Origin: Rhizomicrobium sp.
GTDB lineage: Bacteria > Pseudomonadota > Alphaproteobacteria > Micropepsales > Micropepsaceae
DNA length: 64,000 bases
Direction of reading: 5' to 3'
Assembly: GCA_031291635.1 (NCBI GenBank)
Contig: JARLIR010000008.1
Location: 1-64,000 of the forward strand
The translations under genes and the position numbers were made by a program. Shown piece after piece: positions 27,549 through 44,860 of the stretch; positions within the stretch are counted from its first letter, which is position 1, and each line of letters opens with the position of its first letter. Below the pieces are notes generated by a model, which saw nothing but the letters and a program-made list of their open reading frames with translations, was not told the DNA's origin and searched no databases.

Positions 27549-28238
27549 TTAGGAATCCTGCGCCCGCAAGCGATAGCCGACGCCTTGTTCGGTCAGGATT
27601 AGGCGCGGCTGTTCGGGATCAGCTTCCAGCTTTTGGCGTAACGTACGGACATAAATACGCAAATATTGCACGTCGGCTTCCGCGCCCCAGACTTCGTGCA
27701 GGATGAAACGGTGGGTCAGCACCTTGCCGGCATGGGCCACCATCAGGCGCAGCAAATCGTATTCGCGTGGCGTCAGTTTCACCTCTTGGCCAGCAACGCT
27801 GACAATCCGGCGCACCAGATCGACGGAAAGATCGCCGCTCTGGAACACCGGCTTCTCGCCCTCCTGCTGCAAGCGGTGGCGCATGGCGGCGCGGATGCGC
27901 GCCAAGAGTTCGTCGATGCCGAAAGGCTTGGTGACGTAATCGTCTGCCCCCAGATCAAGGGCTCTGACCTTACCTGCTTCATCAGCCCGCGCCGACAGCA
28001 CGATCACCGGCACCGTGGAGCCTGAGCCGCGCACCAAGCTTAAAACCTCAAAGCCGTCGAGGCCAGGCAAGCCAAGATCGAGCACGATCACATCGACCGT
28101 ATTGCGCTTCAGCGACTCCAGCGCTGCCTTGCTGTCTTCGGCTTCGATCACGCTATAGCCTTGGGTAGCGAGGCTGGTTTTGAGAAAGCGCCTTATGGCG
28201 GGTTCATCGTCCACCACCAAAATCTTCAGCGGGTTCAT
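27549..28238 (-). CDS. kdpE: Two-component response regulator KdpE
   Basis: OmpR-type receiver (VVDDEPAIRRFL...DVIVLDLGLPGLDG) and winged helix; overlaps kdpD stop by 4 bp. Confidence 0.93.
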   Translation of the reverse strand: MNPLKILVVDDEPAIRRFLKTSLATQGYSVIEAEDSKAALESLKRNTVDVIVLDLGLPGLDGFEVLSLVRGSGSTVPVIVLSARADEAGKVRALDLGADDYVTKPFGIDELLARIRAAMRHRLQQEGEKPVFQSGDLSVDLVRRIVSVAGQEVKLTPREYDLLRLMVAHAGKVLTHRFILHEVWGAEADVQYLRIYVRTLRQKLEADPEQPRLILTEQGVGYRLRAQDS

Positions 28239-30898
28239 GCGGCCTCAATCGGAATGGTAATGGCAAAGATGGTTCCGGAAGGATCGGTCCGGTGCCGTGC
28301 GATGATGGTGGCGCCCATGGCTTCGACAAAGCCGCGGCTGATGGCAAGGCCAAGCCCGGTTCCGGCGCGCTGGCGATCGCTGGCTTGCACGCGGAAGAAT
28401 TTGTCGAAGATACGCTCCAAATCCTCTGGCGGTACGCCTGGGCCTTGGTCGCGGATTTCGACCATCACTTGGCCGCCGATTTTTTCCGCCGCAACCTCGA
28501 CCACAGAGCCCGGCGTCGCATATTTTCCGGCATTGTCGAGCAGATTGAACAGCACCTGCTCAAACAGCACCGGGTCCAGCGGGACCAAAGGCAGGTTCGG
28601 CGCCAGCACCAGTTTCAGCGTGTGGTCGCCCAGAACCCGGCCCGCCCGGCGCAAGGCGCTGCCGATGACATCGCCAAGATCGGTGGCTTCCAGCTTGGGT
28701 GCCAGGGCGCCGGATTCCAGCCGCGTCATGTCGAGCAGATTGGCGATGAAGCGATTCAGGCGTTCGGCTTCGTCTTGGATGGTGCCCACCAGTTCGCGAT
28801 GATCCTCGGCACCCAGTGACGCTTCCAGCCCTTTCAGGCTCGAAGCCGCGCCCAGAATGACGGCTAAAGGCGTGCGCAAATCATGGCTGATCGAGGTCAA
28901 AAGCGCCGCCCGCAGCTTTTCGGTTTCGGCGGCGAGGCGGCCTTTTTCGATGTCATCGGCGAGCTGGATACGTTCAATGGCAAGAGCGGCCTGATCGGCC
29001 AAAGCATCAAACAGGCGGCGCTGTTCAGGCGTCAGCAGGGCGCCCGGCTTGTCACTGTCGAGGCCGATGACGCCGATAGTGCCGCGCCCAGTACGCATCG
29101 GCAGATAAAGCCGTTTGGCGCCGGGCAAGGAATCGGCGCCGCGCCCGGCCGGGGTGGCATGGTCCCCAACCCAATGGGCGGCGGCGATTTCCGATTCGTC
29201 CAGGCCGTCATCCGGCGGATAGCCGGCGCGCACCGTCAGATGTCCATTCTCCGGCAGCAAAATCACCACCCGCACCTTCAGCATCTGGGCGATTTGAAAC
29301 GAGGTGGCCCATAAGAGATCGTCGAGGGCAAAAACACCGGCCAATTTGCGGCTGAACTGGTACAGGCTGTCGGTTACCGCCGCCCGCTCGCGCGCCACAA
29401 TGGCTTGCGCCCGTACCCGCGCCGTCAGATTGCTGGCGATCACCGCGACAATGGCGAAGGTCACCAACACCACGACATTTTCCGGATCGGCGATGGTGAA
29501 GGTGTAAAGCGGCGGCAGAAAGAAAAAGTTGAAAGCCAACACCGCCACGATGCTGGCGAACAAAGATGGCCACAAGCCATAGCGCACCGCACTCGCCAGC
29601 ACCGCGATGAGAAAGACCAATCCGACATTGGTGACGCCGAGCGTGCGTTTGAGCACAATCCCGCTGGCCAGCGCCAAAGCGGCAAAAACAAAACTCTCCC
29701 AATAGCCGCGCCGCTCCACGGGCGGCAGCAAGCGTGTCACCGGCTCTTTGCCGCGCATCGCCCGGCTCAATTGCTCCGGCACGACATGGACGCTGACCCC
29801 ACCGGCGCGGCGGATGATTTCGTAGGTCGTGGAGCGCCGCAGCAGCGTCTCCCACCAGGAGCGGCGCGTGGTCGAGGTGACGATATGGGTGAAATTGTTG
29901 GCGTGGGCGTAAGCCACAATACCGTCCGCGACATTGGCGGCCGGAATGGTCACGGTCTGTCCACCCAGACGTTCCGCCACCCGCATAGCCTCGGCGACGC
30001 GGTCACGCTCCTCGTCGGAATAATGCTGCGCGGACGGGGTTTCGACGTAAGCCGCGCTCCAGGAGGCATGCAGCCGGTCGGCCAGACGCCTGCCATAACG
30101 CACCAGCGCGGCGCCGCCTGCCCGCTCGTTGACACGCACCAGCACCCGCTCGCTCGCCTCCCAGGGTCCTTGGATGGCATGGCTGCGCATGTAGCTGACC
30201 ATCTGGTCATCGACGCGCTGGGCGGTGCGGCGCAAAGCGATCTCGCGCAAAGCGGTGAGATTGCCGGGCACAAAATAATTTTGCGCCGCGCGCTCAGCGG
30301 CTTCCGGCAGATAAACCTTGCCCTCTTTCAAACGCTGGATCAGATCGTCCGGCGTCAGATCGATCAGCTCGACATCATTGGCGCGGTCCAGAACCTTGTC
30401 TGGCACCGTCTCGCTGACCCGCACCTTGGTGATGCGGGCGACGACATCATTCAGGCTTTCCAGATGCTGGACGTTCAGGGTTGAATAGACATCGATCCCA
30501 GCGGCCAGAAGCTCTTCGACATCGAGATAACGTTTGGGGTGACGGCTGCCTTCGACATTGCTGTGGGCCAACTCGTCCACCAGCACCAGTTTGGGGCGGC
30601 GCAGCAGGATGGCATCAAGGTCCATCTCATGCAGCACCCGGCCCTTGTAAGGGATGTGGCGCTTGGGGATGATTTCGAGATTGCGGGTGAGGTGTTCGGT
30701 TTCGACCCGCCCATGGGTCTCGACCACACCAATCACCACATCGACGCCTTCGAGCTTGCGCTGCCGGGCGGAGGACAGCATTTCGTAGGTCTTACCCACG
30801 CCCGGCGCAAAGCCGAGAAAGATTTTGAGCCGCCCGTGACCCTCTTGGGCGGCATCCGCCAAGAGGGCTTCGGGCGACGGGCGTGGGGCATCACTCAT
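28235..30898 (-). CDS. kdpD: Sensor histidine kinase KdpD
   Basis: GRLKIFLGFAPGVGKTYEML...DELAHSNVEGSRHPKRYLDVEELL; USP domain; HisKA TSISHDLRTPLAVILG. Confidence 0.97.
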   Translation of the reverse strand: MSDAPRPSPEALLADAAQEGHGRLKIFLGFAPGVGKTYEMLSSARQRKLEGVDVVIGVVETHGRVETEHLTRNLEIIPKRHIPYKGRVLHEMDLDAILLRRPKLVLVDELAHSNVEGSRHPKRYLDVEELLAAGIDVYSTLNVQHLESLNDVVARITKVRVSETVPDKVLDRANDVELIDLTPDDLIQRLKEGKVYLPEAAERAAQNYFVPGNLTALREIALRRTAQRVDDQMVSYMRSHAIQGPWEASERVLVRVNERAGGAALVRYGRRLADRLHASWSAAYVETPSAQHYSDEERDRVAEAMRVAERLGGQTVTIPAANVADGIVAYAHANNFTHIVTSTTRRSWWETLLRRSTTYEIIRRAGGVSVHVVPEQLSRAMRGKEPVTRLLPPVERRGYWESFVFAALALASGIVLKRTLGVTNVGLVFLIAVLASAVRYGLWPSLFASIVAVLAFNFFFLPPLYTFTIADPENVVVLVTFAIVAVIASNLTARVRAQAIVARERAAVTDSLYQFSRKLAGVFALDDLLWATSFQIAQMLKVRVVILLPENGHLTVRAGYPPDDGLDESEIAAAHWVGDHATPAGRGADSLPGAKRLYLPMRTGRGTIGVIGLDSDKPGALLTPEQRRLFDALADQAALAIERIQLADDIEKGRLAAETEKLRAALLTSISHDLRTPLAVILGAASSLKGLEASLGAEDHRELVGTIQDEAERLNRFIANLLDMTRLESGALAPKLEATDLGDVIGSALRRAGRVLGDHTLKLVLAPNLPLVPLDPVLFEQVLFNLLDNAGKYATPGSVVEVAAEKIGGQVMVEIRDQGPGVPPEDLERIFDKFFRVQASDRQRAGTGLGLAISRGFVEAMGATIIARHRTDPSGTIFAITIPIEAA

Positions 30899-30907
30899 AC
30901 CGGCATA

Positions 30908-31486
30908 TTAGCGGGCCGCCGCATCCAGCGCGAGGTTGAGCTTTAAGACATTCACATGTGGTTCGCCGATTAGCCCTGCCAGACGGGCTTCGGTATGGGC
31001 CGCCACCAGCTTGCGCAGTGTGGCTTCGTCCAGCTTTCTGGCCTTGGCGACACGCGGAATCTGAAACAGCGCCGCCGCCGGCGTGATGTCGGGGTCCAGG
31101 CCGCTGGCCGAGCTGGTGACCAGATCGACCGGCACTGGTGCTCCCGGATTTTCCGCCCGCAAAGCTTTGGTGTCCGCGGTAACGCGGTCGATCAGTTTCT
31201 TGGAGGTCGGGCCGAGATTGGAGCCGCCGGAATTGGTCGCGTCATAACCATTGCCCGCCGCAGAGGGGCGGCTATGGAAGTAGCGCGCCGAGGCGAAGTT
31301 TTGGCCGATCAGTTCCGAACCGATCACTTTGCCCTTCTGCGTGATCAGGCTGCCCTCGGCTTGGTGCGGGAACACCACCTTGCCGATGCCGGTAACGGCG
31401 AGGGGATAGAGAAAGCCGGTCAGCAGCGTCATCAGAACCAGCATGACAAGCGCGGGACGAATTTGCTTAAGCATCATAGACCTCAC
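30908..31486 (-). CDS. kdpC: Potassium-transporting ATPase subunit KdpC
   Basis: [26 protein letters not shown]...[40 protein letters not shown]. Confidence 0.95.
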
Positions 31487-33519
31487 ACCAATCCAAAGGC
31501 AGCAACGGCCATATCGATCAGCTTGATGCCGATGAAGGGCACGATGATACCGCCAAGACCATAGACAACGAGATTGCGCCCCAAGAGTGCTGCCGCACCG
31601 ATGGGCCGGTAAGTGACGCCTTTCAGCGCCAGCGGGATCAGCGCCACGATGATCAAGGCATTGAAGATGATCGCCGACAGGATGGCGCTTTGCGGCGAAT
31701 GCAGCCCCATGATGTTGAGCGCTTGCAGCTGCGGATAAAAGGCAATGAACATCGCCGGAATGATGGCGAAATACTTGGCCACGTCATTGGCGATGGAGAA
31801 GGTCGTCAGCGCCCCGCGGGTCATCAAGAGTTGCTTGCCGATTTCGACGATCTCGATGAGCTTGGTGGGATCACTGTCGAGATCGACCATGTTGCCCGCT
31901 TCGCGCGCCGCCATGGTGCCGGTATTCATAGCGACACCGACATCGGCTTGCGCCAAAGCGGGCGCGTCATTGGTGCCGTCACCGCACATGGCCACCAGCT
32001 TGCCTTTGGCCTGCTCCTCGCGGATCAGCGCCAGCTTCATTTCCGGCGTCGCTTGCGCCAGGAAGTCATCCACGCCGGATTCCGCGGCAATGGCGGCGGC
32101 GGTAAGCGGATTGTCACCGGTGATCATCACGGTGCGGATACCCATTTGGCGCAGCGCCGCAAAACGTTCCTTGATACCGCCCTTCACGATGTCTTTGAGA
32201 TGAATGACGCCGAGCAACTTGCCATTCAGCGCCACGGCCAGAGGCGTGCCACCTTGCTTGGCGATGCCATCGGAGATGACCTTAAGGGCATCGGCATTAG
32301 CGGCCAGCGGCCCGACCCAACCCATCACCGCATCGACTGCGCCTTTACGGATGGAGATGCCCTCCACATCGATGCCGCTGATGCGGGTCTGGGCGGAGAA
32401 GGGGACAAAAGCGGCTTGCACCACCTCGCGGCCACGGATGCCATAGCGCTCTTTGGCAAGAACGACGATGGAACGGCCTTCCGGGGTCTCATCGGAGAGC
32501 GACGCCAGCTGCGCCGCATCGGCGAGTTCGCGCTCCTCCACGCCAGGCACCGGCAGGAAAGCCGTGGCTTGGCGATTGCCCAGCGTGATGGTGCCGGTTT
32601 TGTCGAGCAGCAGCGTGTCGACATCGCCTGCCGCTTCCACGGCGCGGCCCGACACCGCCAGCACATTGAATCGCACCAGCCGGTCCATACCGGCAATGCC
32701 GATGGCCGATAACAGCGCCCCGATGGTGGTGGGGATCAAAGTGACGAACAGCGCCACCAGCACCAGCACGGTGATTTTCCCGCCCGCATAAGTGGCAAAG
32801 GCCGGAATGGTTGCTACCGCGAAGACGAAGATCAGCGTCATGCCGGCCAGCAAGATATTGAGCGCGATCTCGTTCGGTGTCTTCTGCCGTTCAGCCCCTT
32901 CCACCAGCGAGATCATGCGATCGAGAAAGGTAGAGCCTTGCGTCGCCGTGATCCGCACCACGATGAAGTCGGAGAGGACGCGGGTGCCGCCGGTCACCGC
33001 CGACCGGTCGCCGCCGGATTCGCGAATCACTGGGGCGCTTTCGCCGGTGATGGCCGATTCGTCGACCGAAGCGATGCCTTCGATCACCTCGCCATCAGAG
33101 GGGATCAACTCACCCACCTCCACCAGCACCAGATCGCCGCGCTCCAGTTGGAAGGCCGGGATTTTCTCCCACAATTTGGCCTTGGGCTCGACCAGGCGCT
33201 TGGCTGTCATGTCGACTTTGGAGCGGCGCAAATAAGCTGCCCGTGCTTTGCCTCTGCCTTCGGCCAAAGCCTCGGCGAAATTGGCAAACAACACCGTGAA
33301 CCACAGCCAAATGTTGATCTGCAGCGCGAAGGCAAAGGCGCCATTGCCCAGCATCGTGTCGCGGATGAAGAGAATGGTGGTGAGGGTCGCCACAATTTCG
33401 ACGACGAACATCACCGGATTCTTCACCATCGCCCGGGGGTCGAGCTTTTGCACCGCGCCAAGGATGGCGGGGAGGATGACGCGCTCACGCGGAGCGGCAA
33501 CTGTCACTAAATTGTCCAT
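31483..33519 (-). CDS. kdpB: Potassium-transporting ATPase subunit KdpB
   Basis: P-type ATPase [61 protein letters not shown]. Confidence 0.97.
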
Positions 33520-35356: not shown

Positions 35357-35440
35357 TCACAACCGGTCGCAGGCAAAAACATAAGCGGTGCAAAGGGCAA
35401 AAAAGCCCGTTCCGAGCACCAGCATGACGATATCGAGCAT
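35357..35440 (-). CDS. 27-aa single-TM microprotein at head of kdp operon (not in ORF track)
   Basis: MLDIVMLVLGTGFFALCTAYVFACDRL*, preceded by GGAGGTTCAC-ATG (strong Shine-Dalgarno); lies just upstream of kdpF. Confidence 0.7.
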   Translation of the reverse strand: MLDIVMLVLGTGFFALCTAYVFACDRL

Positions 35441-35568
35441 GTGAACCTCCGCAAGTTGGGGCGGAGGGTGGGCAAAGCTGCATATAAATTCGAGAGGGGG
35501 CGTGAGGCTAAGGCCTATAGATCCCATATAGAGGCGCCGGTCTTAGCAAGGCGTCGCAAGGGAAAAAT

Positions 35569-35622: not shown

Positions 35623-36927
35623 CTAGGCCTCTACCCCCACCGGAACCGCGTAACCGGCGCGGGGGAGAAGAAACCGCAGCAACGGGCCGGTCATCACCGT
35701 CGTCGTCACCGCCATGATCACCAGCATGGTGAAGACATTCTGCGGGATGAAGCCAAGATCGAAGCCGATGTTGAGCACGATCAGTTCCATCAAAGCCCGG
35801 GTGTTCATCAAGGAGCCGAGAATGGTCGATTCCTTGTGATTGAAACCGGCCAGCCGTCCGGCGACATAGACCGGAATGATCTTGCCCAGGATTGCTGCCG
35901 CTAAGACCAGCGCCAGCCATTGCCAATCCGAGGCGCTGACCAGCCCCAGCACATTGGTGCGCAAGCCCGTGTAGGTGAAGAAGACCGGCAGGAAAAAGAC
36001 CAGCACGAACTTGCCGATTTGGGCCCGCCAGGCTTCGACGAATTTGCGCTCATGATGAAACAGCAGCCCCGCCAGGAAGCCGCCGAAAATTGTGAAGATG
36101 CCGAGCTTGTAGGTGCAGATGCCAATGGCAAAGACGAAGCATAAGATCACCGTCATCAAATTGGGCGGGATATGGCCGTCGATCACCGGCAGCTTCACCA
36201 GCAGCTTGTGCGCCAGGGGGCGCAATACGAACCAGGACACCAAGGCGAGCAAAACGATGCCACCTACTTGCAAGCCAACCCCTTCGGCGGAAAACTTGGC
36301 GGAGGCGTAGGCCGAAATCGCTGCCAACAGCACCCACCCAACCACGTCATTTGCGGCGGCAGCGGAAATCGCAACGACGCCGATTTCCCGTCCTGTCAGG
36401 CCAAACTCCCGCAGAATACGGCCCAGAATCGGCACCGCCGTGATGGCCAGGCCAACGCCGAAAAACAGGCTGTAGGTCAAAGGATCGATGGTAGGCGCCA
36501 GATGGGGTGCCGAGATCTGGCCGATGCCGAAGCCGAGGGCGAAAGGAACCATGATGGAGGCAGCGGCAATGCCGATCACGCCATTGCGGTTCTTGGCATG
36601 GGCGAGGTGGCCGAATTCGAAATCGATACCGATCTGGAACATCAGCAAAACAAGCCCAATCTGGCTGATGATAGTGATCGGCGCGGAAGCTTTGGCGCCG
36701 AACAAAAATAGCGAGGCATCGGGAAAGAAATGCCCGAACAAAGAGGGGCCCAAAATGAGACCCGCGAGGATCTCGCCAATCACCCCCGGCTGGCCGAAGC
36801 GGCGCAGGAGCTGGTTACCCGCCCGCGCGGCGGCAATCATCACGATAAGCTGCAGCAAGACCGAAAACAGCAAACCTTCCGTCTGATGAACTGACGAATG
36901 CATCAATATCCTCCACAGCACGGCCAT
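35623..36927 (-). CDS. Cation:proton antiporter (CPA2 / KefB-like membrane domain)
   Basis: LLRRFGQPGVIGEILAGLILGPSLFG...GLVLLMFQIGIDFEF...SISAAAANDVVGWVLLA-type region; 434 aa. Confidence 0.88.
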   Translation of the reverse strand: MAVLWRILMHSSVHQTEGLLFSVLLQLIVMIAAARAGNQLLRRFGQPGVIGEILAGLILGPSLFGHFFPDASLFLFGAKASAPITIISQIGLVLLMFQIGIDFEFGHLAHAKNRNGVIGIAAASIMVPFALGFGIGQISAPHLAPTIDPLTYSLFFGVGLAITAVPILGRILREFGLTGREIGVVAISAAAANDVVGWVLLAAISAYASAKFSAEGVGLQVGGIVLLALVSWFVLRPLAHKLLVKLPVIDGHIPPNLMTVILCFVFAIGICTYKLGIFTIFGGFLAGLLFHHERKFVEAWRAQIGKFVLVFFLPVFFTYTGLRTNVLGLVSASDWQWLALVLAAAILGKIIPVYVAGRLAGFNHKESTILGSLMNTRALMELIVLNIGFDLGFIPQNVFTMLVIMAVTTTVMTGPLLRFLLPRAGYAVPVGVEA

Positions 36928-37123: not shown

Positions 37124-38629
37124 ATGAACGGCAATAACATTCGCACGGTGTTGATCGTCGGCGGCGGCACCGCTGGCTGGATGGCGGCGGCGAGCCTCGC
37201 CAAATTCCTCGAAAACATGAACATCACCATCCGCTTGGTGGAGTCCGAGGAAATCGGCACCGTAGGCGTGGGCGAAGCCACCATCCCGCCGATCATCGAT
37301 TTCATCCGCGTGCTCGGCATCGACGAAAACGATCTCATCCGTCAGATCAAAGCCACCTTCAAACTTGGCATCGGCTATCGCGATTGGACACGGCCGGGCC
37401 ACAGCTACTTCCACCCCTTCGGACCGACCGGCTTTGGTATGGGCCCGGTCTCCTTCAACGCCTATTGGTTGAAGATGTATCTGGCGGGCGAGGCGGCGCG
37501 GCTGGAGGAATATTCCATGCAGTCCGTGGCCGCCGAGCAAGGCCGCTTCATGCGTCCGGTGCATGCCCCCAACACCCCGCTCAACAAGATTACTTACGCG
37601 CTGCATTTCGATGCCTCGCTGTTTGCCCGCTATCTGCGCGGTTATGCCGAAAAGCGCGGTGTGGTGCGCAGCGAAGGCAAAGTGCGCACCGTCACGCTCA
37701 AGCCTGAGGACGGCTTCATCGAATCGGTGACGCTGGAAAACGGCGACACCATCGCCGCAGATCTCTTTATCGATTGCAGCGGTTTTCGCGGCCTCTTGAT
37801 CGAGCAGGCGTTGAAGACGGGTTACAATGATTGGACACATTGGCTGCCCTGCGACCGCGCCTTGGCCGTGCCCTGTGCTGCTAGTGGTCCGCCCGCCTCC
37901 TACACCCTGGTCACGGCGCGTGAGGCCGGTTGGCAATGGCGCATCCCGCTACAGCACCGTGTCGGCAACGGCCATGTCTATTGCAGTGGCTTCACCTCCG
38001 ACGAAAAAGCGCAGGATATTCTGCTTGCCAATCTGCAGGGCAAGCCGTTGGCTGATCCTTTGCCGCTGCGCTTCACCACAGGCAGCCGCAAAAAGGCCTG
38101 GAACAAAAACTGTGTCGCTTTGGGTCTGGCCTCGGGGTTTTTGGAGCCGCTGGAATCAACCAGCATCCATCTCATTCATCGCGGCATCGCCATGCTGCTC
38201 AAATTCTTCCCGGATCGTAGTTTCCAGAAAGCCGACATCGATCGCTACAACAAGATTTTCGAATTCGAATTCAGCCGGGTGCGCGATTTTCTTTTGCTGC
38301 ACTATACCCAAACGGAACGTGAGGGGGCGTTCTGGGAGCATTGCCGCAACATTCCCTTGACCGACAGCCTGCAGGAAAAGCTCGACCTCTTTCGGAGCCA
38401 CGGCCGCATCCTGCGCGAGGATACCGAGCTTTTTCCGGTGCAGAGCTGGCTCTTCGTCATGATCGGCCAGAATATCATCCCGCGCGGCTATGACCCTCTC
38501 GCCGACACGCTGGACCCGGAGAAGATCAAAACCAATCTGAAGGACATTCGCGCTGTGGTGAAACGCTGTGCCGAGTCCATGCCGACGCATCAAGCCTTCA
38601 TCGCACAGAACTGCGCCATGAAGACCTAA
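37124..38629 (+). CDS. Flavin-dependent tryptophan 7-halogenase-like protein (paralog A)
   Basis: VLIVGGGTAGWMAAASLA, VGVGEATIPPI, ATFKLGIGYRDW, GWQWRIPLQHRVGNGHVYCS (WxWxIP), SGFLEPLESTSIHLI. Confidence 0.92.
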   Translation: MNGNNIRTVLIVGGGTAGWMAAASLAKFLENMNITIRLVESEEIGTVGVGEATIPPIIDFIRVLGIDENDLIRQIKATFKLGIGYRDWTRPGHSYFHPFGPTGFGMGPVSFNAYWLKMYLAGEAARLEEYSMQSVAAEQGRFMRPVHAPNTPLNKITYALHFDASLFARYLRGYAEKRGVVRSEGKVRTVTLKPEDGFIESVTLENGDTIAADLFIDCSGFRGLLIEQALKTGYNDWTHWLPCDRALAVPCAASGPPASYTLVTAREAGWQWRIPLQHRVGNGHVYCSGFTSDEKAQDILLANLQGKPLADPLPLRFTTGSRKKAWNKNCVALGLASGFLEPLESTSIHLIHRGIAMLLKFFPDRSFQKADIDRYNKIFEFEFSRVRDFLLLHYTQTEREGAFWEHCRNIPLTDSLQEKLDLFRSHGRILREDTELFPVQSWLFVMIGQNIIPRGYDPLADTLDPEKIKTNLKDIRAVVKRCAESMPTHQAFIAQNCAMKT

Positions 38630-39630
38630 TGCCCGCCACGCAGCAGATGCATGACATAGGCGCGCAAGCGGCCGTAATTGTCGGGCTTGAGCGGGCCTAA
38701 CAATCCGTGTTCCTGCGGCGGCAAATGGCGCAAAGGGTGGCCTTCGCTGCGAAAGACATAGTGATCGAACCACGCCTTCCAAGCGGTCCGCTCGGCGGGT
38801 GGGCGCTCGGCAATAGCAATCAGCGCCAGCAACATGGCGGTGTAAGGCGCATCCGGACCGCTGCGAAACGCGTCCCACCAATAATTGACCAGGCAATTGA
38901 AGGGCGCCGTGCCTTCGACTTGGTGCCACCAAAGCTTGGGCAGAAAGATTGCATCGCCTGGGCCAAGCTCGGCGATCAGGGCCGAGTCGCGCAATGGCTC
39001 GAACAGCGGAAATCTTTCGGCATCTGGTGCCGAGGAGGCGGCGAGGCTGACCGGCTGGCCCGCCATGGTGCGGTCGATCGGGCCGATATAAAGTTTTCCG
39101 ATCAACTCCGGTGGATAGAGCGTGAAGCGCCGCGTTCCGGCCGTAACACAAGCAATGTTCTCCATGGCATCGTAATGACTGGAGACATTGGAGGCGTGGC
39201 CGATCCAGATCCGCGGGTTCACCCCCTCTAACAAAGGCATGGTATTGGCAGCGGTGAACCCCGGCAGGTAATCATCCACCGGTACCGACCCGGCATAGAC
39301 CGATGGCGCTCCGGGCGTCGCCAAATTTCCCACCACGGCTTTGACCGTCGCCGCAAAGCCCATCTGCTTGCGCTCGAAATTGAAAGCCCCAAAGCCCGAA
39401 TCGTAGAAGTATTTGCCGTGGATTTCCGGCGGGCCGACAAAGGCATCCATCGCCAAGCCGCGATCGAAGGCCAACACATAATCGCAGAAGGCTTGGGGCC
39501 CTTGGCGCCCGGCTTGCACCGCGGGCCAGTCCGCCACCTGGCCGCGCAAAATCAGCGGCTGGCAGCTTTCCAGAATGGCCTGGAATTCCTCAGGGCGGGC
39601 AGCTCCGCGCTCCGCCACGGGGCTGGTCAC
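38626..39630 (-). CDS. Cupin-like (JmjC / Cupin_8) domain protein
   Basis: QPLILRGQVADWPAV...IWIGHASNVSSHYDAMENIACVTAGTRRFTLYPPE...LGPGDAIFLPKLWWHQVEG. Confidence 0.88.
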   Translation of the reverse strand: MTSPVAERGAARPEEFQAILESCQPLILRGQVADWPAVQAGRQGPQAFCDYVLAFDRGLAMDAFVGPPEIHGKYFYDSGFGAFNFERKQMGFAATVKAVVGNLATPGAPSVYAGSVPVDDYLPGFTAANTMPLLEGVNPRIWIGHASNVSSHYDAMENIACVTAGTRRFTLYPPELIGKLYIGPIDRTMAGQPVSLAASSAPDAERFPLFEPLRDSALIAELGPGDAIFLPKLWWHQVEGTAPFNCLVNYWWDAFRSGPDAPYTAMLLALIAIAERPPAERTAWKAWFDHYVFRSEGHPLRHLPPQEHGLLGPLKPDNYGRLRAYVMHLLRGGH

Positions 39631-40313
39631 GAAAGCCCTGTCACGCCCTCAAGCAGGCGGCTGTTTTTCTTGTTCGCCAGGATCGACACCTGTTTCAGCG
39701 AAGCGGTCATCAAATAGATCAGCTCCAGATAACCACGGCGGAACAGGTTCAGCACCTCGGCATCAGGCAGTTCGCGCAAGGCTTCCCGATTGATGGTGTA
39801 AAGCCCGGCGAGGGAGCGCGCGCTGCCGTCATCAAAGCTCACCTTGATGTCGATGGGTTCGATCAGCTTGAGGCCGAGCAGTGTCTCGGTAAATATCCGC
39901 GTGCGTTCGATGCCCGGTACCAGATCGCGAAACAGCCCCAGCATGGATTTGAGATAGGCGGTGGGCTCGCCGGACGCCTCGAACAGGGCTTCGCCGCTTC
40001 CCACACTGGGCGAATCAAGATCGATGGCGAGCTCAGTGCCTGCCGCGAAAAACGGCCCACGCTGCAAATTGAGCGGGCGGTAGACTTTGGCGCCGTCCGC
40101 AGCGAAAAGGTTTTCCTCCAGGTCAAAGCCCAGCATCGCGCCGCAATAAAAGGTGCCGGTGTCGGCATCCTTGGAGAACAGGATCGGATAATGCAGCGCC
40201 AGATGCGAAAATTCGTTGACGATGACGCCGATGAAATTGCGCTTCTCGGCGCCTAAAGGCTGCACCCGCAAGCCGCGGTGTTCGGTGTTGTTCAGAACGA
40301 CGATGTTGGTCAC
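39627..40313 (-). CDS. SapC family protein
   Basis: NFIGVIVNEFSHLALHYPILFSKDADTGTFYCGAMLGFDLEENLF; 228 aa. Confidence 0.88.
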   Translation of the reverse strand: MTNIVVLNNTEHRGLRVQPLGAEKRNFIGVIVNEFSHLALHYPILFSKDADTGTFYCGAMLGFDLEENLFAADGAKVYRPLNLQRGPFFAAGTELAIDLDSPSVGSGEALFEASGEPTAYLKSMLGLFRDLVPGIERTRIFTETLLGLKLIEPIDIKVSFDDGSARSLAGLYTINREALRELPDAEVLNLFRRGYLELIYLMTASLKQVSILANKKNSRLLEGVTGLS

Positions 40314-40319
40314 GGGTCC

Positions 40320-41864
40320 TCAGATCGGCTGTAAGCCAAAGGTGCGAATCTTCTCCACCAGCGTACGGTTGCTGGGCAGTTCGGCGCGCATCCGCGCCGT
40401 CATCACGCTATTCTGGCGCATCAGTTGTGCCGCCAGCCGCGCCGTCGGCGCGGTTTCATCGACATCGATCTCCGTGCGGAAGCCCATGCCGTAGAGCACA
40501 TATTGATAGCTGGCGGCGGGGAACACTTCTTCCAGGCGATCGAATTCGTCGAAGAACCAGGGCGAGCGATAACGCCACACTTTCAACAGCTTCTGCAAAC
40601 GCTCAGGGATGCTGGCGGGGTCGGCATTGTCGATCCAGAACTGGCTGTCGGTGCGCTTGGTTAGGCAATAATGCAGCTTGAGGAAGTCAATGATGCGGCC
40701 CCAGCGATAGAGGGTCACCTCATTGAATCGGTCAGCCACGATATCCATCACCTCGCGATTGGCCGGCATCTGCTCGGCGATCAGCTTGGCCGACAATTCG
40801 CCCAGTACGATGGCCGAGGATTCCAGCGGCTCCAAAAAGCCCGCTGCCAGCCCCACCGCGACGCAGTTGTTCTTCCAGAAGGTGGCGCGATGGCCCGAAC
40901 GGATCGGAATCTTGCGCACCTTCAGATCTTTGATCTTGGGGCCGACATAAGCAGCGAGGGTTTCCTGCGCTTGTTCCTCGCTCATATAGCGGCTGGAATA
41001 GACATGGCCCACGCCGCGGCGGGAGGGCAGACCGATATCCCAGATCCAGCCCGCTTTCTGCGCGGTGGCATTGGTTTGGGACGCCATCGGGGCATCGGGG
41101 CGGTCATAGGGCACCTGCACCGCGAGCGCTGTGTCGGCGAAGAGCACATCGGAGCAATCCTTGAACGGCACGCCCAAGGTCTTGCCCAGAAGCAGCGAGG
41201 CAAAGCCGGTGCAGTCGACAAAGAGGTCGCCCGTCACTGTGCCCGCTTGCGCGGTTTGCAGGCTTTCGATGTCGCCGTTGTCTTTCTGCTTTACCGCGGT
41301 GACATCGGCTTGAATATGACGCACGCCCAACATCTTGGTGGCATGGCGCTCCAAGAATGGGGCGAATTTTCCGGCATCAAGGTGATAGGCGTAATTGGCG
41401 GCGCCTTCATATTCGGCGGTGGCAATGGTTTTGGGCGCCAGGCCGTCGTCGCACAGCGCGCCTTGTTCACACACCGCATCGCAGAAGCTGCGGCCGTCCT
41501 CAGCGGCCAGCCAATGCGGCACCAGATTCACCTCGTGGAAGCCTTGAGGCAGAACCAGCGGGTGATAATAGAAATCATTGTCTTCGCCAGTGGTCCAGCG
41601 CGCGAACTTGCCGCCTTGCTTGAACGAGGCATCGCATTCGCGGAAGAAATCGGTTTCCGAGACGCCGATCTTTTTCAGCGTGCTGCGGATTGTCGGCCAA
41701 GTGCCTTCGCCGACCCCGATGATCGCCACCGAAGGTGATTCGACCAGCGTGACGGAAAAGCTTCCAGCTTTAATGCGGGTCTGATGACGGGCGGCGATGA
41801 CGGAGGCTGCAAGCCAGCCTGCGGTGCCGCCGCCTACCACCACGATATCTTTGATTGGCTGCAT
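40320..41864 (-). CDS. Flavin-dependent tryptophan 7-halogenase-like protein (paralog B)
   Basis: IVVVGGGTAGWLAASVIA, IGVGEGTWPTI, ASFKQGGKFARW, GWIWDIGLPSRRGVGHVYSS, AGFLEPLESSAIVL; start trimmed to MQPIKD. Confidence 0.92.
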   Translation of the reverse strand: MQPIKDIVVVGGGTAGWLAASVIAARHQTRIKAGSFSVTLVESPSVAIIGVGEGTWPTIRSTLKKIGVSETDFFRECDASFKQGGKFARWTTGEDNDFYYHPLVLPQGFHEVNLVPHWLAAEDGRSFCDAVCEQGALCDDGLAPKTIATAEYEGAANYAYHLDAGKFAPFLERHATKMLGVRHIQADVTAVKQKDNGDIESLQTAQAGTVTGDLFVDCTGFASLLLGKTLGVPFKDCSDVLFADTALAVQVPYDRPDAPMASQTNATAQKAGWIWDIGLPSRRGVGHVYSSRYMSEEQAQETLAAYVGPKIKDLKVRKIPIRSGHRATFWKNNCVAVGLAAGFLEPLESSAIVLGELSAKLIAEQMPANREVMDIVADRFNEVTLYRWGRIIDFLKLHYCLTKRTDSQFWIDNADPASIPERLQKLLKVWRYRSPWFFDEFDRLEEVFPAASYQYVLYGMGFRTEIDVDETAPTARLAAQLMRQNSVMTARMRAELPSNRTLVEKIRTFGLQPI

Positions 41865-41897
41865 CGAGGTGCCCCGCTGATTGTTGACATCATAGTC

Positions 41898-41930
41898 AAA
41901 AAAAAGAGGGGCCGCCAAGGGCGACCCCTC
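41898..41930 (-). terminator. Rho-independent terminator between TonB receptor and halogenase B
   Basis: Minus strand: GAGGGGTCGCC-CTT-GGCGGCCCCTC followed by TTTTTTTT. Confidence 0.8.
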
Positions 41931-41947
41931 CCAGTACCGAGGGTATG

Positions 41948-44860
41948 CTAGAGTTTGAAGTGGGCGCCGATCTTAAACTTGCGGCCATAATCCACGACAT
42001 CCAGGAGCTGGTTCGAATAGCGCCCATGCGTGGAGTAGGTCGCATCGGTCAGATTGTTCGCCTCGAAGAACACCGTCACCTGGCTGGTAATGTCGTAGCT
42101 GGTGCTGAAGTCCAGGTTCCAGTTGGTATTCACGAAGGTCGGCTCGGTGCCGAACGCCGAACCGTTCTGGATTTGGCCGAAATGATCCAGATAGCTATCC
42201 TGCCAGTTGGCGGCCAAACGCGCCTGGAAGCCGTCTTTGTCGTAGAAGGCGACGGCGTTGAAGGAGTCCGACAGACCGGTGACCGAGAAGCCACTGACGC
42301 TGAGATCCGCGGGGTTATACGGCTTGTCGGTGCCGACGATGGTACCGTTGACCTGGTAACCGAAGCCCGAATCGCCAAAGACATGCTGCCAAGCCAGTTC
42401 GAGACCGTACACATTCGCCGCCGGGCCGTTGGCCGGCTTGGTGACGGTGTAGGGAACATCGACCGTGATACAAGGCGTGTAGGCGACCCCGGTGGCCGGG
42501 TTTTGGCATTCGGTACCGACAACGCCGTAATCGGCAGAGGCGGATTGGTTGACGATGAAGTTGTCCACCGACTTCAAGAAGACACCGGCCGACAGATAGG
42601 AGTTCTGGGCGTAGTACCACTGCGCGCTGACATCCACGTTGTCAGCCAGATAAGGCAACAGATTGGAGTTGCCGCCGCTGGTGGTGACAGTGCCGATACG
42701 CGAGCTGTTAACACTGGTAACGGGGTTGAGCTGGCTGATCGGCGGGCGCGTCAAGGAGCGCGAGGCGTCGAAGCGCAGATCGAGATCGTCCGTCACGGCC
42801 AGGGTCATATCGAAATTTGGTAGCAGGTATTGGTACTGATGCTGGGCCGAAATCGGAACAATGCCGCCCGCATAGTTGACCTGCCACGCGGTCTTATCGC
42901 TCGACTGCTGCGTGAAGGATTGAACGATTTGGCCGAGACCGGTGACGCTTTCATTGGTGATGTCGTAACGCGTGCCGACATTGACCTTCAACGGCAGGCC
43001 GCCGACCGTGGTTTTGAAATTGGCCTCCACATAACCGGTGTAGGTCTCTTCTTTTAAGACGTGGTAATTGCCCGGATTGAACGCCACCTGATAGGTGCCG
43101 CTGAAGGGCTGCCCGGCATGGGCAGGATCACTCGCACTGGCGCCTGCCGGCAAGGCGCAGCAATTGCCGGCACCTACGCCATGAAGGCTGTTCAGGTAGT
43201 TGAGGGTCGGCCAGGGATCGTACTGCAGAATCTGCGACGGCAGGTTGCCCGCGCCGCTCCAGCCATTGATGAAGTCCGAGGTGCTGAAGGTCTTGCTGAA
43301 GAAGTTCTGGGGCAGCGCGACACCGTTACCAGGGGTATTACCCGATGCCGGGCCGTAGCCAGCATAGGCCTGCCAGTTGTTGTTTTGAAAGCTGTCCCAG
43401 CTCGTCTCGTTCTTGTGCTCGGCAACATATTGGAAGCCGACTTTGAAACTGATGTTGTCTTCGGTCCAATTACCCTCAACCTTGGCTTGGTTGATGGTGT
43501 CGAGGTTCCAGCCCTGCGTCATCGGCAGCACATGCGAGCCGATAATGCCGTTGTTGATGAACTGGGCCTTGTTGTTGCCGGGGCCGTAATTGCTCGTGTA
43601 AGGCAGGCCATGGCCGTTGGGCAAAGTGATGCCGACGCTCGCGTTGTCCGAGCCATTGCCGTTGCCATAGCCGACGTCGACGTCGATACCAATTTCATGG
43701 CTCGGATTGGACCAACCTTCGGCGTGGTCATAGTCCAGCAAAATGGCGAACTTGTCGGTCAAGCTCCACTTCACATTGGCGCCGATGTCGTTGAACTGCA
43801 GGGTCTGGGGATTATATTGGCCCTGGAAGTCGGTCGGGGTGCCGGGCTGCACGAAATTCACCACAGTGCCATTGCTGTCGAGCTGTGTATTCTGCATGCC
43901 GGTGGTATTGAACCACACGCTGTAGCCGTACTGGGCTTGGTGGGTATGGTCGCGACTGAAGTTGTCGTTTAGCGTGACCTCGAAGGCATCGGTCGGGCGC
44001 CATTGCAGTACCAAACGGCCCTGCGTGCGCTCGACATTTTGTTGCTCGTGATAGATGCCGAAATCCTGGATGAACCAACTCGGCACGCCCACTTGCTCAG
44101 TGTTGACGCCACCGACGTTGTGATAGCCGCCTTTCGTGCCTTCCCAACCCTGGATGTTGATGTGGTTCATGCGGGTCTGGGTAGACGAATAAGACAAGTC
44201 CGCCAGAATACCGAAGGTGTCGTGCGCGAAAGTATCGCTGATGAGCAGGGCGCCGCTCGGGCTCCACTTGCCATCTTCCGGAGAAATCATGCCCGCGGCC
44301 GAACCAGCGATGACAAGGCCGGGATGATCGAAGGGTTTGGGAAATTTGACGTTGATCGTCGCGCCGATGGCACCGGAGGACAGCGAGGCGTCCGGCGACT
44401 TTAGGACATCGACCTGGCCGACGAAGTCGGGCGAGATCGAGCTGAAGTCGAAGGCGCGGTCGCCGGTGCCGGTGGCAACCTGACGGCCATCAAACAGGGT
44501 CTGGTTGAAGGTCGGGCCGAAGCCGCGCACCGTGACTTCGGTGGCTTCGCCGTTGGTCGACACGCCGCCCGTGCCGCCCATCGTGGAGGCAGCGCGGCTG
44601 ACGGTGACACCCGGGATGCGCATCATCGATTCGGCAAGGTTCACATCGGGGAATTTGCCGATGTCTTCCGAGCTGATGGCGTCCACCAAGCCCGACGATT
44701 CGCGCTTGACGTCCAGCGAGCGCTGCAAGGAGCCGCGCAGACCGGTGACAACCACTGTCTCCATGTCCTGCGCGGTCGCCGGCAGCGGCAGCAATGCGGC
44801 AATACAAGCCCCGCCCAACAAACTGCTGCGTAGCAGCGTAGCAAAAGTTCTATTTTTCAC
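41948..44860 (-). CDS. TonB-dependent receptor (Xanthomonas/Caulobacter carbohydrate-type)
   Basis: Signal peptide; ETVVVTGLRGSLQRSLDVKRESSGLVDAISSEDIGKFPDVNLAESMMRIPGVTVSR; C-terminal RYSNQLLDVVDYGRKFKIGAHFKL. Confidence 0.95.
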   Translation of the reverse strand: MKNRTFATLLRSSLLGGACIAALLPLPATAQDMETVVVTGLRGSLQRSLDVKRESSGLVDAISSEDIGKFPDVNLAESMMRIPGVTVSRAASTMGGTGGVSTNGEATEVTVRGFGPTFNQTLFDGRQVATGTGDRAFDFSSISPDFVGQVDVLKSPDASLSSGAIGATINVKFPKPFDHPGLVIAGSAAGMISPEDGKWSPSGALLISDTFAHDTFGILADLSYSSTQTRMNHINIQGWEGTKGGYHNVGGVNTEQVGVPSWFIQDFGIYHEQQNVERTQGRLVLQWRPTDAFEVTLNDNFSRDHTHQAQYGYSVWFNTTGMQNTQLDSNGTVVNFVQPGTPTDFQGQYNPQTLQFNDIGANVKWSLTDKFAILLDYDHAEGWSNPSHEIGIDVDVGYGNGNGSDNASVGITLPNGHGLPYTSNYGPGNNKAQFINNGIIGSHVLPMTQGWNLDTINQAKVEGNWTEDNISFKVGFQYVAEHKNETSWDSFQNNNWQAYAGYGPASGNTPGNGVALPQNFFSKTFSTSDFINGWSGAGNLPSQILQYDPWPTLNYLNSLHGVGAGNCCALPAGASASDPAHAGQPFSGTYQVAFNPGNYHVLKEETYTGYVEANFKTTVGGLPLKVNVGTRYDITNESVTGLGQIVQSFTQQSSDKTAWQVNYAGGIVPISAQHQYQYLLPNFDMTLAVTDDLDLRFDASRSLTRPPISQLNPVTSVNSSRIGTVTTSGGNSNLLPYLADNVDVSAQWYYAQNSYLSAGVFLKSVDNFIVNQSASADYGVVGTECQNPATGVAYTPCITVDVPYTVTKPANGPAANVYGLELAWQHVFGDSGFGYQVNGTIVGTDKPYNPADLSVSGFSVTGLSDSFNAVAFYDKDGFQARLAANWQDSYLDHFGQIQNGSAFGTEPTFVNTNWNLDFSTSYDITSQVTVFFEANNLTDATYSTHGRYSNQLLDVVDYGRKFKIGAHFKL

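Follow-up and report, generated by a model that had tools for sequence, protein, structure and literature searches.

Many soil, plant-associated, and host-associated bacteria take up K+ with high affinity through the Kdp pump, a model P-type ATPase. In a 64,000-nucleotide stretch of Rhizomicrobium sp. DNA (contig JARLIR010000008.1; hereafter, the window), a frame of only 27 codons lies immediately ahead of kdpF, which raises the question of whether it is a gene and, if so, whether its product belongs with the pump. A sequence-only reading of the window had proposed that the frame encodes a membrane microprotein, serving as a second small accessory subunit or a regulator of KdpFABC in addition to KdpF. 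Here, we studied this open reading frame (ORF) by homologue searches, profile comparisons, and a survey of kdp loci.

A short ORF at the head of the kdp operon

The ORF consists of 27 codons followed by TGA, and its translation is exactly MLDIVMLVLGTGFFALCTAYVFACDRL. The region 5' of its ATG reads TTGCGGAGGTTCACATG, and the window sequence confirmed what had been claimed for it, namely, a 27-codon frame directly ahead of kdpF, its ATG preceded at a spacing of 5 nt by GGAGG (Table 1). Its stop codon is followed after 7 nt by the kdpF start, and the GAGG Shine-Dalgarno sequence of kdpF is partly made of that stop codon (TGTGAGGCGGCGATG). The program-made ORF list also holds a longer in-frame version (56 aa, start at 35527), which is short of the customary 60-aa limit. 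Of the two starts, the inner ATG is the more probable one, as it has the Shine-Dalgarno sequence and as 27 aa is the modal length of the homologues (120 of 194 distinct loci).

Table 1. Features of the kdp region of the window
Feature	Coordinates	Strand	Basis
Microprotein gene (unnamed), MLDIVMLVLGTGFFALCTAYVFACDRL	35357..35440	minus	ORF; kdpF-side conservation; pN < pS; cross-phylum profile match
GGAGG Shine-Dalgarno of microprotein gene, 5 nt from ATG	35446..35450	minus	direct from sequence
kdpF, 29 aa	35260..35349	minus	PF09604, E 1e-8, 35.3 bits, over cut-off
kdpA, 575 aa	33529..35256	minus	PF03814, E 2.6e-249
kdpB	31483..33519	minus	translation inspected; operon position
kdpC	30908..31486	minus	inspection; operon position
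kdpD sensor kinase	28235..30898	minus	PF02702, E 4.6e-99
kdpE-like response regulator	27549..28238	minus	inspection; operon position
Probable promoter region of kdp transcript	35441..35567	minus	inferred from position between terminator-like hairpin and microprotein gene

A terminator-like hairpin at 35602-35568, 3' of the preceding antiporter-like gene, upholds the earlier placement of the microprotein gene at the head of the operon and points to it as the first gene of the kdp transcription unit; no sigma-70-like match was found in the putative promoter region between the two. By inspection, the gene just upstream of the operon on the same strand (35623-36927) resembles cation:proton antiporters, and the stretch farther upstream (37124-44860) holds two tryptophan-halogenase-like flavoproteins, a cupin-like protein, a SapC-like protein, and a TonB-dependent receptor.

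The family consensus is M-x-D-hydrophobic-F-F-hydrophobic-Y/F-x-x-x-C-D/E-R/K-L/I. The N-terminus has Asp and no basic residues, and the C-terminal end has Arg or Lys (RLRRR in some groups), a combination for which the positive-inside rule predicts an outside N-terminus and a cytoplasmic C-terminus. The product is thus probably a single-span, N-out/C-in membrane protein, with charges and hydrophobicity that would fit any one-span membrane peptide.

Conservation, spread, and possible loss

Whether so short a frame is maintained as protein can be judged from how its codons change. Across 25 independent close pairs, pN was 0.133 against a pS of 0.336 (Fisher p about 6e-23), with codon position 3 holding 192 of the 366 differences, so that the sequence-based outcome named beforehand as refuting the proposal, a lack of amino-acid conservation or of synonymous bias, was looked for and is absent. 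Among 77 members from the alphaproteobacterial class, Asp3 is invariant (77/77), and Tyr20 (76/77) and Cys24 (71/77) are nearly so. Such a pattern marks the ORF as a genuine protein-coding gene whose product is under selection.

When genomes of class Alphaproteobacteria were first searched with the peptide, 36 of 289 had a match; the better-scoring matches directly precede kdpF-kdpA and are nearly all 27 aa long, whereas most of those in the weak tail do not lie there. A profile matched in 49 of 96 genomes of the taxonomic family. In a draw of 299 pseudomonadotal genomes, 41 alphaproteobacterial genomes had KdpA, and the ORF adjoins kdpF/kdpA in 40 of these (two, G457 and G509, weakly; the exception is G026). 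For other pseudomonadotal classes, we scanned several hundred bases ahead of kdpA, which is the basis of all our absence calls, and found the ORF in 29 of the 55 KdpA genomes examined and not in the other 26. It is present in f169, f175, f176, f180, f204, and others, and absent from all ten f177, all eight f182, and all three f179 genomes. Strong matches away from kdpA are almost nonexistent in the 299 genomes. One orphan copy (L029; G037 contig 9, 84620-84697) has no kdpA within 1.5 kb, the single kdp operon of that genome being on another contig, and is perhaps a remnant.

A scan of genome contigs with a KdpA alignment yielded 80 loci, skewed to Alphaproteobacteria, 79 of them with upstream DNA. 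A matching ORF sits beside kdpF in 78 of the 79 (weak in L197, L256, and L266), and the carriers include Acidobacteriota, Gemmatimonadota, Myxococcota, Chloroflexota/Thermomicrobiales, Melainabacteria, Coriobacteriia, and Bacillota. Further carriers came from plasmid records, namely, Deinococcus radiodurans, Bacillus badius, and Rhodococcus; in the stretch scanned, the records of Listeria, Lactiplantibacillus, Tsukamurella, Picosynechococcus, Comamonas, and Cupriavidus had no such ORF. Judged by these matches, which beyond Pseudomonadota come from a non-random sample, the family spans about ten bacterial phyla.

Since the alignment of members from outside the class was built by position and by eye, we checked it with decoys and with a model of class members only. 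Compared by hhalign, the alphaproteobacterial profile and a profile built from 29 members outside the class, other phyla included, gave a probability of 98 (E 1e-13) and a score of 50.6, versus 8.9 +/- 2.0 (maximum 21.6) for 300 column-shuffled decoys. The class-only model (77 members) placed the kdpF-adjacent ORF at the top of about 68 ORFs in 27 of 31 out-of-class loci; the scripted count was 28, which we lowered by one because the ORF that scored in L256 (1 bit) was another one nearby.

An E. coli kdp operon, examined in the record of a large plasmid, lacks the ORF. In a KdpA tree of 125 rows, the ORF is found in 115 and the absences are scattered, such that the supported branches require six changes or more, in what is a quick tree with several long branches and one "absent" row (L260) that is a contig ending early. 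E. coli falls within a supported group together with ORF-bearing Betaproteobacteria, which suggests that its lineage lost the gene. E. coli-type KdpFABC is functional and structurally complete without the microprotein, and the pump presumably also works without it in the Pseudomonas-like and other non-carriers; its absence from E. coli-type and Pseudomonas-like genomes implies that it is not universally needed. A PDB search with KdpA returned only 557-residue chains (25 entries), which we take to be E. coli KdpA.

Relation to known small proteins

Searches of Pfam, NCBIfam, and PDB with the peptide and with a 37-member alignment found no credible family, and we rejected chance-level matches such as BcsF (E 0.002, two members). 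The sequence-only reading had stated that similar peptides ending in YVxACDRL precede kdpF in other bacteria, mostly unannotated, and both the homologue searches and the annotations of the records bear this out. For instance, the Azospirillum lipoferum member is a "hypothetical protein" in RefSeq, and most of the listed Rhizobium plasmid copies correspond to no annotated feature in a gene table that is incomplete but lists kdpF beside unannotated copies. RefSeq protein WP_212667346.1 of Mycetohabitans endofungorum (34 aa) overlaps the kdpF start and matches the profile at 31.7 bits, which makes it a member of the family. Its name, "potassium ABC transporter ATPase," is a misnomer, as 34 residues leave no room for ATPase or ABC features and no NCBIfam model stands behind the name. 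Our literature searches, mostly of non-subscription literature, found no named gene or small protein beside kdpF; further kdp gene letters had only unrelated meanings among the matches listed, and kdp goes unmentioned in the main text of the paper on the small proteome of Sinorhizobium meliloti.

The nearest comparison is KdpF itself, which is likewise a tiny single-span membrane protein, with a similar arrangement of acidic and basic residues that includes a basic C-terminal end, encoded next door in the same operon and often translationally coupled to the microprotein. However, alignments show that the microprotein lacks the mid-helix Y-L and the P-E-K/R-F C-terminus of KdpF, and the KdpF models (PF09604 and TIGR02115) do not match the peptide, whereas the next ORF scores 35.3 bits. 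Against KdpF, hhalign gave a probability of 1.7 with the alphaproteobacterial profile and 23.6 with the out-of-class profile. An origin by duplication of KdpF is unsupported, given the weak profile comparison. The out-of-class profile scores 16.3 against KdpF, with shuffles at 7.7 +/- 1.9, and a very remote common origin may exist. CydX, AcrZ, and MgrB are small single-span accessory proteins of membrane machines, and the microprotein may work like them, its short helix stabilising or modulating a much larger partner in the membrane; it differs in its operon and presumed partner and in matching no Pfam or NCBIfam model.

A probable accessory subunit of the Kdp pump

The original proposal is strongly supported in so far as the ORF encodes a conserved membrane protein with one span that belongs to the kdp operon, as seen from its spread, the purifying selection on it, its coupling to kdpF, and its near-exclusive linkage. 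Over 194 distinct loci, the gap to kdpF has a median of 10 nt and is within 50 nt in 187, start and stop overlap in 33, and the ORF has a Shine-Dalgarno-like motif in 182; the kdpF Shine-Dalgarno sequence shares the ORF stop codon in 58 of 190 loci. The gene is a conserved member of the kdp structural operon and is selected at the protein level. Its linkage to kdpF/kdpA, its translational coupling, and its membrane-span sequence together make it likely, as far as sequence comparison can tell, that the microprotein is an accessory subunit or an assembly or stability factor of KdpFABC. A second small subunit besides KdpF is the best-supported of the roles suggested, with a regulator of pump activity not separable from a stabilising subunit. 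The microprotein would be translated just ahead of kdpF from the same message, and the two tiny proteins would be made together when K+ is scarce. It would then bind the membrane part of KdpFABC, in analogy to KdpF and with no recognisable homology to it, its helix placing the acidic N-terminus with the invariant Asp3 outside and the Cys-Asp/Glu-Arg end at the cytoplasmic surface; Asp3, Tyr20, and Cys24 could contact helices of KdpA or KdpB. The bolder version, to which we give an even chance, is that the common Kdp pump has a fifth, single-helix subunit in about ten phyla, which was lost in the E. coli lineage and is absent from Pseudomonas-like groups. In that case, the textbook KdpFABC complex and its structures would represent a reduced machine. 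If most lineages do have an extra subunit, work on E. coli KdpFABC concerns a version missing one part, and kdpFABC constructs from other species have omitted the microprotein. The gene is so short that annotation misses nearly all copies, and it offers three conserved residues to mutate.

The place of the gene also admits a partner other than the pump. Small single-span regulators of sensor kinases are known, and a peptide made first, from a gene heading an operon under KdpD control, might feed back on KdpD as MgrB does on PhoQ; in the Pseudomonadota draw, KdpD is present in almost every genome that carries the ORF. However, the ORF stays by kdpF/kdpA and not by kdpD in every gene order, and the two are found apart in both directions: G536, a complete genome, has kdpA and the ORF with no KdpD match, and the ORF is missing from E. 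coli-type and Pseudomonas-like genomes, where both KdpD and kdpA occur, and from f177 and f182 genomes, which retain KdpD. In G110, KdpD is accompanied by neither kdpA nor a strong ORF match. As the ORF occurs without KdpD in G536 and KdpD without the ORF is common, the ORF appears to follow the pump and not the sensor, and we regard a KdpD-directed role as unlikely, and less likely than one at the pump.

It is quite improbable that the peptide acts near but outside the Kdp complex, for example, as a general effector of K+ limitation or membrane stress. The orphan copy away from kdpA would suit such a role, and so would the effects on host cells that a paper on mycobacteria ascribes to KdpF overproduction (PMC3618439). 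The near absence of other strong matches away from kdpA and the linkage across about ten phyla point instead to the pump.

Translation of the ORF could itself be the function, setting the translation or transcription of kdpF/kdpA through coupling or attenuation, with the peptide as a by-product. The layout would suit this, in that the ORF is the first cistron and, in many loci, its stop codon overlaps the Shine-Dalgarno sequence or the start of kdpF. A short hairpin with six T also lies within the ORF (35417-35405, coding strand), and about 100 nt before kdpF in Caulobacter has been described as a structured 5' UTR in a paper on cold (PMC8552747). That region could hold a microprotein ORF, and some presumed 5' untranslated regions before kdpF may be coding. 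Against a mere leader stand the selection on amino acids (pN 0.133 vs. pS 0.336), the invariant Asp3, and the same residues being kept across phyla. Position does not fit either: the ORF follows kdpF in the order kdpF-ORF-kdpA (L190, L156, and L157), and it lies between kdpB and kdpF/kdpA in L181 and L173. The order is kdpB-ORF-kdpF-kdpA in D. radiodurans, where kdpBAC is reported to be one operon (PMC5716572), and kdpB-ORF-kdpA in L173 of G600. No separate kdpF was recognised in L173, and its ORF scores 24.8 bits on the new profile versus 12.9 on KdpF. The ORF thus keeps to kdpF/kdpA despite changes in gene order. The T run consists of two Phe codons that are mostly TTC in relatives (87 TTC, 37 TTT), and with TTT not kept in most of them a conserved attenuator at the hairpin is unsupported. 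A function as leader alone is therefore very unlikely, and coupling may exist alongside a function of the peptide. That the ORF is a chance frame or an annotation artefact, for which one could cite its 27 codons and the longer chance frame spanning the same stretch, is barely credible when pN is so far under pS and about ten phyla conserve the ORF.

Other small frames occur in these operons. At L236 (Thermomicrobiales, about 2030-2360), an ORF of ~100 aa lies between kdpF and the microprotein ORF, the end of which it overlaps. L254 (a Deltaproteobacterium, about 2205-2440) has kdpF first and then a small hydrophobic ORF, MIYFIAGLIIIGIFYWITAIFVDFTDKI, which falls below the profile and is possibly a diverged relative in swapped order. 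Between kdpF and kdpA, roughly 120 to 4 nt before kdpA, a small frame with a hydrophobic product of 31-38 aa (for example, MLLLAKLLLADAALVAGLLALLLPLLRRTQCLKG) is found in L109, L110, L112, L113, L214, L220, L221, L225, L238, and L243, several of them Bradyrhizobium, and may encode a third small protein of the operon that lacks annotation. In a Rhizobium leguminosarum plasmid, a 51-aa hypothetical protein is annotated between kdpA and kdpB (L178:2414-2569).
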